Shown here piece by piece: positions 14,660-17,182 of a DNA stretch of 64,000 nucleotides. The position numbers and the translations under genes are program-made. Each line of letters opens with the position of its first letter. Within the stretch, counting starts at the first letter, position 1. The notes under the pieces were generated by a model. That model was not told the DNA's origin. It saw only the letters and a program-made list of their open reading frames with translations, and ran no database searches. The DNA is from Collinsella aerofaciens (GTDB lineage: Bacteria > Actinomycetota > Coriobacteriia > Coriobacteriales > Coriobacteriaceae): assembly GCF_015558785.1 (NCBI RefSeq), contig NZ_JADMOP010000004.1:45707-109706 (forward strand), written 5' to 3'.

Positions 14660-15598
14660 CTAGCAATCTACGATTTCTACCCCGTCTTCCGACAGTTGGT
14701 TGGCATGGATGATGCGGTTGAGCTCGTCGAGGTATTGCTGCAAGAGGGGAGAGGGCTTGCGGTCGTCATGCATGATGTAGCCCACATGCATCGTCGGGGC
14801 GTCTGCCAGGGGGATCGAGGCCATGCCCCACTGCATTTCGCTGGAGAGTACGCCGGTCGACAGCGCATAGCCGTTCGAGGTGATAAGCAGGTTGGTGAGC
14901 GTCCCGCGGTCGGATACGCGGATATTGCGGTTGCAGGGAATATAGCTAAACGGTTCCTCGGCGTAATAGAAGGAGTTCGAGGTGCCTTGCTCAAAGCTGT
15001 AGCGCGTATAGGGCGTGAGGTCGGCAAGGGACAGCTGCGAACGGCGTGCGAGCGGGTGGCGTTCGCTGACGAACACGTGGACTTTTGCATCAAAGAGGGG
15101 ATGAAAGCTCGCTCGGGCATCGGTAAAGGCCTTCTGCAAGACACGGGTATTAAAGTCATCCAGATAGAGGATGCCGATATCGCTGCGAAACGCGCGCACG
15201 TCGTCGATAATCTGCGCTGTGGTGGTCTCGCGCATGATGAACTCGAACTTGCTGTCGCGGCAGCGCTCGACTACGTTGACAAAGGCCTCGACCGAAAAGG
15301 CGTAGTGTTGGGCGGAAATGGCGAGGCGGGCTTGCGGGGTACCGCCGTCCTCGTAGCGGGCCTCGAGCATGTCGGCCTGCTCTACGACCTGGCGTGCATA
15401 ACCCAAAAGCTCGGTGCCGTCGTTGGTGAGTGCAACACCGCGGCTGGAGCGCGTAAAGATTTCGATATGAAGCTCCTGCTCCAGGCTTTTGACGGCATTG
15501 GAGATATTGGACTGTGCCGTATAGAGGCGCTGGGCTGCGGCGTTGATCGAACCGGACTCTGCCACGGCGATCAAAAAGCGAAGCTGTTGGAGGGTCAT
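14660..15598 (-). CDS. LysR-family transcriptional regulator
   Basis: This 312-aa regulator has an N-terminal winged helix-turn-helix (LQQLRFLIAVAESGSINAAAQRLYTAQSNISNAVKSLEQELH) and a periplasmic-binding-protein-like effector domain from about residue 90. It is divergent from metY, and a T-N11-A type palindrome lies at its own start. A role in methionine/cysteine control is therefore likely, as with other LysR regulators next to sulfur genes. Confidence 0.93.
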   Translation of the reverse strand: MTLQQLRFLIAVAESGSINAAAQRLYTAQSNISNAVKSLEQELHIEIFTRSSRGVALTNDGTELLGYARQVVEQADMLEARYEDGGTPQARLAISAQHYAFSVEAFVNVVERCRDSKFEFIMRETTTAQIIDDVRAFRSDIGILYLDDFNTRVLQKAFTDARASFHPLFDAKVHVFVSERHPLARRSQLSLADLTPYTRYSFEQGTSNSFYYAEEPFSYIPCNRNIRVSDRGTLTNLLITSNGYALSTGVLSSEMQWGMASIPLADAPTMHVGYIMHDDRKPSPLLQQYLDELNRIIHANQLSEDGVEIVDC

Positions 15599-15618: not shown

Positions 15619-15639
15619 GTTATCTATAAAACCGATAAC
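15619..15639. promoter_or_regulatory. LysR-type operator candidate
   Basis: GTTATC and GATAAC form a perfect inverted repeat separated by 9 bp, about 20 bp upstream of the lysR ATG. This is the usual architecture of an autoregulatory LysR site in a divergent promoter region. Confidence 0.6.
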
Positions 15640-15702
15640 AGGTTAGCGCTTTAAAGTGATTGACCGAGGAAAACAATGCTCGTACTATTCAAAACACACA
15701 AA

Positions 15703-15802
15703 GACGGTAGGTAATTAAGCCAACTACGGAACCGGGATGCGAAAGGAGGCCCGCATATGAATTGCTTACCAAGACGAATGCCGGGCTCCTGTTTGCGCCC
15801 GT
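15703..15802 (+). promoter_or_regulatory. metY leader with alternative stem-loops (attenuator candidate)
   Basis: Mutually exclusive pairings can be drawn. A small hairpin pairs ATGCG with CGCAT around AAAGGAGGCC. The downstream hairpin pairs AGGAGGCCCGCAT (15745-15757) with ATGCCGGGCTCCT (15778-15790), allowing one bulge per side. An outer pairing joins GACGG to CCGTC. A 17-codon open frame with a strong ribosome binding site lies inside. This resembles a translation-coupled attenuator; it does not match the SAM riboswitch sequences I know. Confidence 0.5.
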
Positions 15803-15810
15803 CGGCGTGA
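15757..15810 (+). CDS. Candidate cysteine-containing leader peptide
   Basis: The 17-codon frame encodes MNCLPRRMPGSCLRPSA and ends in TGA. AAAGGAGG lies 7 bases before ATG, a better site than many genes here. Cys occurs at positions 3 and 12. The frame overlaps the hairpin that could control metY, so ribosome stalling at Cys or Met codons could select between stems. The function is inferred from position only. Confidence 0.5.
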   Translation: MNCLPRRMPGSCLRPSA

Positions 15811-15871
15811 TCAGGAGACAGCGACTCACTTCTCTTACTCTTATTACTTTTGTTCGATCAAGGAGATCATC

Positions 15872-17182
15872 ATGAGCCAGTTTATCAACAACCCCGAGCA
15901 CACCTTTGGTTTCGATACCCTGCAGCTGCACGTTGGCCAGGAGAGCGCCGATCCTGCATCCGACTCCCGCGCCGTGCCTATCTACCAGACCACGAGCTAT
16001 GTGTTCCGCAACTCCCAGCACGCCGCCGACCGCTTTGGTCTTGCCGACGCCGGTAACATCTACGGCCGTCTGACCAACTCCACCCAGGGCGTCTTCGAGG
16101 ACCGTATCGCCGCCCTCGAGGGTGGCGTGGCAGGTCTTGCCGTCGCCTCCGGTGCTGCTGCCATCACCTATACCCTGCAGGCTCTTGCCCAGGCCGGTGA
16201 CCACGTGGTGGCTCAGAAGACCATCTACGGTGGCTCCTACAACTTGCTGGAGCATACGCTCTCCCAGTTTGGCGTCGAGACCACGTTTGTCGATGCCCAT
16301 AACCTTGAAGAGGTCGAGGGTGCCATCAAGGACAACACCACGGTCATCTATCTCGAGACGCTCGGCAACCCCAACTCCGACATCCCCAACATCGACGCCA
16401 TCTCCGAGATCGCCAAGAAGCACGGTCTGCCGGTTGTCGTCGACAACACCTTCGGCACCCCGTATCTGCTCCGTCCGCTGGAGCATGGTGCCAATATCGT
16501 CGTCCACTCCGCAACCAAGTTCATCGGCGGCCACGGCACCTCGCTGGGCGGTGTGATCGTCGACGGCGGTAACTTCGATTGGAAGGCGAGCGGAAAGTAC
16601 GCCCAGATTGCTGAGCCCAACCCCTCCTACCACGGTGTCTCGTTTGCCGAGGCTGCCGGTCCCGCCGCCTTTGCAACCTATGTCCGCGCTATCCTGCTGC
16701 GTGACGAGGGCGCTTGCATCAGTCCGTTCAACGCCTGGGTCCTGCTCCAGGGCACCGAGACTCTGTCGCTGCGCGTTGACCGTCATGTCGAGAACACCAA
16801 GAAGGTCGTTGAGTTCCTGGCTGGTGACAGCCACGTCGCCAAGGTGAACCACCCGAGCCTGCCTGAGCACCCCGATCACGAGCTCTATCAGAAGTACTTC
16901 CCCCGTGGCGGTGCCTCGATCTTTACCTTTGAGATTAAGGGTGGCCAGGAGGCAGCTTGGAAGTTCATCGATCATCTGCAGGTGTTCTCGCTGCTCGCCA
17001 ACGTGGCCGACGTCAAGTCGCTCGTCGTGCACCCGGCTACCACCACGCACTCCCAGCTCTCTGCCGAGGAGCTCGCCGAGCAGAACATCACGCCCTCCAC
17101 GATCCGTCTTTCCATCGGTACCGAGAACGCCGAGGATATCATTTGGGATCTGAAGCAGGCCTTCGCCGCGCTGGACGAGTAA
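15872..17182 (+). CDS. metY: O-acetylhomoserine sulfhydrylase
   Basis: This 436-aa PLP enzyme makes homocysteine from O-acetylhomoserine and sulfide (direct sulfhydrylation). The PLP Lys sits in HSATKFIGGHG near residue 215; YGRLTNST and the C-terminal SLVVHPATTTHSQL are typical of MetY rather than MetB. The length fits MetY (~430). AAGGAG lies 9 bases upstream. It is preceded by a possible attenuator leader and divergent from a LysR gene, and followed by a strong terminator. Confidence 0.95.
   Translation: MSQFINNPEHTFGFDTLQLHVGQESADPASDSRAVPIYQTTSYVFRNSQHAADRFGLADAGNIYGRLTNSTQGVFEDRIAALEGGVAGLAVASGAAAITYTLQALAQAGDHVVAQKTIYGGSYNLLEHTLSQFGVETTFVDAHNLEEVEGAIKDNTTVIYLETLGNPNSDIPNIDAISEIAKKHGLPVVVDNTFGTPYLLRPLEHGANIVVHSATKFIGGHGTSLGGVIVDGGNFDWKASGKYAQIAEPNPSYHGVSFAEAAGPAAFATYVRAILLRDEGACISPFNAWVLLQGTETLSLRVDRHVENTKKVVEFLAGDSHVAKVNHPSLPEHPDHELYQKYFPRGGASIFTFEIKGGQEAAWKFIDHLQVFSLLANVADVKSLVVHPATTTHSQLSAEELAEQNITPSTIRLSIGTENAEDIIWDLKQAFAALDE

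Follow-up and report, generated by a model that had tools for sequence, protein, structure and literature searches.

The metY gene in the window (the whole 64,000-nt stretch of Collinsella aerofaciens DNA that was analysed) is preceded by a short, Shine-Dalgarno-led frame, and we consider it likely that this frame encodes a leader peptide and forms part of a ribosome-mediated attenuator, which would couple metY to how much charged Met-tRNA and Cys-tRNA is available. The frame is one of 31 distinct leaders found in Coriobacteriia and Lachnospiraceae genomes, i.e. in two phyla (hereafter the ‘RMxxSR’ family, after the peptide motif R-M-x-x-S-R). The features of the window leader and its surroundings are as follows:

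14660–15598, minus strand: divergent LysR-type regulator gene (Pfam HTH_1 and LysR_substrate).
15619–15639, no strand assigned: perfect inverted repeat GTTATC-N9-GATAAC, seen in the sequence between the LysR-type gene and the metY promoter.
15660–15688, plus strand: promoter-like site TTGACC-17-TACTAT (9/12 consensus).
15742–15749, plus strand: Shine-Dalgarno (SD) sequence AAAGGAGG of the leader frame, also region 0, which pairs with region 1.
15757–15810, plus strand: leader peptide frame MNCLPRRMPGSCLRPSA, stop TGA, intact in 22/22 relatives and homologous to 30 other leaders.
15775–15780, plus strand: CGA-ATG (Arg-Met), core of the RMxxSR motif.
15786–15799, plus strand: region 1 (CTCCTG-T-TTGCGCC), within the leader frame, pairing with region 0 or region 2.
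15804–15817, plus strand: region 2 (GGCGTGA-T-CAGGAG), overlapping the leader stop codon and forming the 1:2 hairpin.
15838–15847, plus strand: possible region 3 (CTCTTATTAC), pairing with 15807–15817 in the free fold (P up to 0.66).
15872–17182, plus strand: metY, O-acetylhomoserine sulfhydrylase (homocysteine synthase; TIGR01326, 611.7 bits against a cutoff of 495.1).

The frame runs for 17 codons, from the ATG at 15757 to the TGA at 15808–15810, with 61 nt between it and metY, and the initial annotation, which had proposed a 17-codon frame with a strong ribosome binding site at this place, was correct on both counts. No other frame of 10–40 codons preceded by AAGGAGG occurs in the 64 kb window, whichever strand is read, and the window form of the leader is present once in its own genome. 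A transcript start is expected at about 15694, and the -10 element of the promoter-like site is almost invariant in 22 close relatives, defined here as the 22 of 43 genus genomes with a leader match of at least 90%. The inverted repeat is, as read from its sequence, a possible regulator site, and its position beside the promoter means that metY may be under two layers of control. Elsewhere in the window, five tRNA genes, three of which score identically, lie within the first 2.5 kb (4–2509).

Folding of the modelled free leader yielded a stem between AGGAGGCCCGCAT (15744–15756) and ATGCCGGGCTCCT (15778–15790), i.e. the region 0:1 pairing, with P = 0.80, and the long helix of which it is part is paired in 558/572 cells across the 22 relatives. 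The competing fold joins CTCCTG in region 1 (15786–15791) to CAGGAG in region 2 (15812–15817), the latter just beyond the stretch covered by the initial annotation, and forms a 13-bp hairpin (15786–15817) that overlaps the leader stop and is paired in 286/286 cells. The stem spelled out in that annotation was recovered, together with an alternative that excludes it; region 2 and the RMxxSR family are additions of the present analysis. Three kinds of change occur in the 1:2 hairpin among the relatives and all preserve pairing, one of them being the change of the stop from TGA to TAA. The significance of the 1:2 pairing comes from these relatives, as in the window alone the 6-bp core match was not significant by itself (shuffle p 0.245) and the stability of the whole leader was not unusual (z = -1.26, with 20/200 shuffles folding equally well). 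When a ribosome was modelled by masking a footprint of assumed size, its placement at Cys3 raised P(1:2) from 0.19 to 1.00, placement at Met8 gave P(1:2) = 0.52, and placement at Cys12 left neither 0:1 nor 1:2. The possible region 3 is weak and poorly conserved, and 15830–15849 is the stretch of lowest conservation in the leader across the relatives. A switch that traps the metY SD was also modelled for the window and set aside, as access to that SD (0.32–0.51) changed little between states.

The initial annotation had named a frame broken in close relatives that keep the stems as an outcome that would count against a leader peptide; the frame was broken in 0/22. Changes within it are silent (AAT/AAC, TTA/TTG, TGT/TGC and stop TGA/TAA) or substitute single residues (N2K, P5L, P15S and S16L), so that the codon-level signal alone is mild and the kept stop and unbroken frame weigh more.

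Beyond the close relatives, metY orthologs from 30 genus genomes provided eight upstream regions that differ from the window type. Six of the eight contain an SD-led frame with R-M-x-x-S-R, coded CGA-ATG-...-CTCTCGG, followed downstream by CCGGGAG or TCGGGAG; the remaining two (L072 and L074) are without a leader, which places a leader before metY in 28/30 genus orthologs. These genus leader places recur in Collinsella and Coriobacteriaceae records. A draw of 256 genomes from the class contained 49 with metY (at E up to 1e-160), and the leader was found at 33/49 of these genes, comprising 24/25 in the genus and 9/24 elsewhere; the other 15/24 metY genes outside the genus were without it. One of the leaderless genes (L130) has an Rrf2-family gene (PF02082) as its divergent neighbour, which suggests that there a protein regulator stands in for the leader. 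Repeats like ACCTACT..AGTAGGT were seen upstream of the leaderless metY genes L130, L134, L136 and L138, the latter three similar by eye. We also searched the 24 non-genus metY upstream regions together with L072 and L074 for the peptide RM..S[RC] in three frames, irrespective of codon usage. All nine matches were metY leaders outside the genus, each in frame with an SD-led ATG, and the first Arg codon was CGA in 9/9.

Similarity of DNA outside the genus was limited to two weak matches to the window leader (L044 and L045, E 0.003 and 0.005). Pattern scans extended the family further; in these, a leader was called by an SD-led frame and a position before a gene, Met/Cys content not being a criterion, and every pattern left the bases before CGA unconstrained. 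When 84,980 species, each represented by a single genome, were scanned with the pattern CGAATGCNNNNCTCTCGG plus a paired element, 24 matches were returned, 13 of which were SD-led leaders before metY (3 of them in Lachnospiraceae records), and the other 11 were dismissed, having no metY at the locus and no SD-led leader frame. In 396 class genomes the CTCCCG form of the pattern matched 11 times, against none for a reversed control: four known leaders, four new ones, two places left out (L149 and L150) and one dismissed as a leader (L153). Downstream of the new leaders lie a MetE-like methionine synthase (L154; NF005085), an MFS transporter (L155, in G230:C18, with the peptide ...MMMMCCC-RMPNSR), metY (L156) and cysK (L159; best NCBIfam match cysKM/cysK, the gene being cut by the contig end), and the transporter is a candidate for methionine or cysteine transport. 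A looser pattern applied to 23 leader-holding genomes gave 35 matches, of which 24 were known, nine were dismissed, one was left out (G108:C1:937219) and one (L182) was a new leader before a metN-like ABC ATPase. A further pattern search produced 25 places, eight of them leaders and 17 dismissed on inspection, with 13 matches for its reversed control.

Among 220 genomes of the family to which a Lachnospiraceae record belongs there were five matches in four genomes and none for the control, and 5/5 were leader-like; a second search returned these five places again. Two precede metY (L192 and L193), one metQ (L190), one a relative of OAH-sulfhydrylase that scores under the family cutoff (L191), and one a GST-domain gene (L194, in G441:C116) which we take to be possibly a glutathionyl-hydroquinone reductase relative. 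Lachnospiraceae metY genes with a leader are thus L102, L107, L109, L192 and L193. The MetY proteins of L102, L107 and L109, the three measured, share about 77% identity with the Collinsella enzyme, and their sequences hint at exchange between phyla, any single case of which could be a binning error in a metagenome-assembled genome. Three genomes (G230, G250 and G441) have two leaders apiece. The 31 distinct leaders count the 22 window-type leaders once and exclude repeat places and L103, L105, L118 (peptide as in L096) and L108 (as in L085). Their targets are metY (24), metQ, metN, a MetE-like gene, cysK, the MFS transporter, the OAH-sulfhydrylase relative and the GST-like gene.

A start preceded by an SD and in frame with R-M is present in 31/31 leaders, a figure to be read with the fact that pattern matches without an SD-led frame had been dropped as chance. 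The typical peptide is ...MMCC-R-M-x-x-S-R, and Met and Cys codons crowd immediately ahead of CGA-AUG; MMMMCCC, MMCC and MCC are among the runs that abut the shared R-M. Leaving the start Met aside, 84/151 of the five residues that precede R-M are Met or Cys, compared with 43/391 after the motif and a background of 3.5% in eight open reading frames of the window. At least two Met/Cys residues fall within these five positions in 24/31 leaders, and L125, L132 and L182 have none there. These runs, together with targets that are mostly methionine or cysteine genes, lend support at the sequence level to the cysteine/methionine leader peptide that had been suggested in the initial annotation, which suits the comparative data more closely than the other readings tested.

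Region 1 (CUCYCGG), which lies inside the frame and begins 11 nt past the C of CGA, pairs and covaries with the downstream region 2 (CCGGGAG); the window has the variant core CTCCTG and CAGGAG, and the loop between the two regions ranges from 14 to 79 nt. Since the search patterns had partly selected positions 1–6, covariation was tested at positions 7–12, in 30 leaders (L148, which has no such core, was excluded) and with region 2 dealt to other leaders in each permutation. Watson-Crick pairs numbered 128/180, and none of 10,000 permutations reached this value (mean 78.9, sd 5.6, maximum 103), in a test that ignores relatedness and carries a small bias from picking region 2 in each leader as the best-pairing core. 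The excess persisted without L001, L071 and L127 (117/162 against 72.5), and the best-helix score gave the same result (26.7 against 21.0; 0/10,000 permutations). An intrinsic terminator is present in 14/31 leaders and its 5' arm is region 2 in each of the 14, so that the 1:2 pairing and the terminator are mutually exclusive; a terminator was not found in the other 17/31, the window included. Pairing of region 1 with the leader SD was not retained as a general feature of the family, its support by permutation being modest (18/10,000 permutations reach it, or 132/10,000 when two near-duplicates are removed).

The frame, the shared motif, the Met/Cys crowding, the 1:2 covariation, the terminator arm common to 14/31 leaders and the sulfur-gene targets are observed; stalling of the ribosome, the sense in which control acts and, for the window with its missing terminator, the output step are inferred. 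In the free RNA, region 0 would be folded onto region 1. A ribosome slowed at the Met/Cys codons just ahead of CGA-AUG would open this 0:1 stem and uncover region 1, which would then capture region 2. Because region 2 is the 5' arm of the terminator in relatives, capture would mean read-through, i.e. expression when either methionine or cysteine is short. With an ample supply of both, the ribosome would proceed over region 1, leaving region 2 free, and the terminator would form. Counted from the first base of the A-site codon, the footprint of a bacterial ribosome usually reaches about 12 nt downstream. A ribosome paused at the codon before CGA would therefore not reach region 1, and would cover it after moving on by one or two codons; the Met/Cys codons thus lie at the point from which a stalled ribosome would leave region 1 exposed. 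Judging from its sequence, the leader appears to serve as an internal gauge of how much methionine and cysteine is at hand. For the window, the stretch that follows region 2 (15818–15858), which is C-rich and G-poor (11 C, 4 G), might, speculatively, suit Rho.

Because region 1 does not include the R-M pair or the CGA codon, the 1:2 pairing leaves them unexplained. The same fact can be taken to mean that R-M-x-x-S-R is a regulatory arrest peptide, i.e. that abundant Met, SAM or Cys causes the nascent chain to halt the ribosome over region 1, freeing region 2 for the terminator, and CGA in 9/9 of the matches found irrespective of codons, against 9/144 Arg codons in eight window frames, is in keeping with this, as is L125 (MRHTKRMPNSR-stop), which retains the motif with the start Met as the only preceding Met or Cys. 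We nevertheless regard arrest as rather unlikely: the upstream crowding of Met/Cys has no need of it, the S and R codons overlap region 1 and may be conserved for pairing, the sample is small, and CGAATG was required by design in all DNA pattern searches. A combination of the two ideas is offered with considerable doubt, namely that R-M-x-x-S-R/CGA-AUG acts as a nascent-peptide or codon-pair brake, common to Coriobacteriia and Lachnospiraceae, which parks the ribosome on region 1 by default (off), perhaps in response to Met or SAM within the exit tunnel, with the upstream Met/Cys codons holding the ribosome back during starvation (on). If this were true, a leader of about 150 nt would house a two-input sensor of sulfur amino acids.

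Attenuation by charged-tRNA supply, which we favour for the family, is less conspicuous in the window leader itself. Its only Met/Cys codons are Cys3, Met8 and Cys12, with no run ahead of R-M, and the search for a terminator there found none. Together with the LysR-type gene and the inverted repeat beside the promoter, this reduction would fit an element that in the window clade is a fading relic, metY being controlled mainly by the divergent regulator. We think this unlikely, as the frame, its stop and the 1:2 hairpin have all been kept in the 22 relatives while 15830–15849 drifted.

It is highly improbable that the element switches by RNA alone, as a riboswitch of unknown class or a protein site, with the frame playing no part, for although the base-pairing constraint is strong and the conserved CGAAUG could be an RNA motif, an in-frame, SD-preceded start occurs throughout the 31 leaders (after matches without one were dropped) and in the 9/9 non-genus metY leaders found by peptide, the 1:2 loop varies in length, and no Rfam family matches. 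Specifically, no SAM riboswitch or other family was found in the window leader at gathering level, which bears out the initial annotation in that no SAM riboswitch pattern fits, and at E up to 10 there were merely chance microRNA and snoRNA matches. The leaders of 20 related loci likewise had no Rfam match, and five leader peptides had none among NCBIfam profiles at E up to 1. The sole Rfam match at those loci was an FMN riboswitch elsewhere in L182 (1015–1153, minus strand), adjoining the metN-like leader locus.

Overall, the RMxxSR family offers a candidate RNA mechanism that extends from import (metN, metQ) to synthesis (metY, MetE-like, cysK), uniting Met and Cys codons in one sensor with a peptide motif beyond what base pairing explains, and CGAATGNNNNNCTCYCGG with a downstream CCGGGAG provides a simple marker by which genes under sulfur control could be found in gut bacteria.

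Control of methionine genes from the mRNA leader is also exerted by SAM riboswitches, T-boxes and other Rfam leaders, none of which matched the leaders of the window or of the 20 related loci. In classical trp/his-type attenuators, control codons govern an antiterminator and a terminator that share one arm. Compared with these, RMxxSR leaders have the 5' arm of the antiterminator inside the frame, just past the control codons, and also keep a peptide motif. Of the parts that make up an attenuator, the window has the short SD-led frame (putatively translated); Met/Cys control codons are evident in the family and weak in the window; and an exclusive antiterminator/terminator pair is found in 14/31 leaders, the window showing only 0:1 against 1:2. 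Leader peptides with Cys runs in Actinobacteria were reportedly also described by Canestrari in 2020, a study cited in PMC13236596. The window frame does not match the polycysteine leaderless ORF of mycobacteria, as it has an SD and its Cys codons (3 and 12 of 17) are separate. The Actinobacteria leaders in the part of Seliverstov 2005 considered here (PMC1262725) resemble ours in having a leader ORF with cognate codons ahead of sulfur genes; there, Cys runs lie near the stop, before cys operons, with no conserved hairpins reported, and that study states that RNA structure showed no conservation ahead of actinobacterial methionine operons. The nearest published precedent that we found, judged from part of its source, is the metL leader of Streptomyces lividans (PMC8079986), which lies upstream of metNIQ and encodes a peptide ending ...CMCRRMCAF. 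Like the window leader, metL is a short leader peptide with Met/Cys codons before methionine genes of an actinobacterium. Unlike RMxxSR leaders, metL is described in that part of the source as leaderless, with termination unclear, and, compared by this description only, has no RMxxSR and no defined paired elements (PMC8079986). Our literature search, whose coverage mostly excluded subscription papers, returned nothing on a metY or RMxxSR leader and no RNA mechanism for methionine genes of Coriobacteriia or these Lachnospiraceae. Leader-peptide attenuation itself is already known, and the RMxxSR family appears to be a new variety of it.
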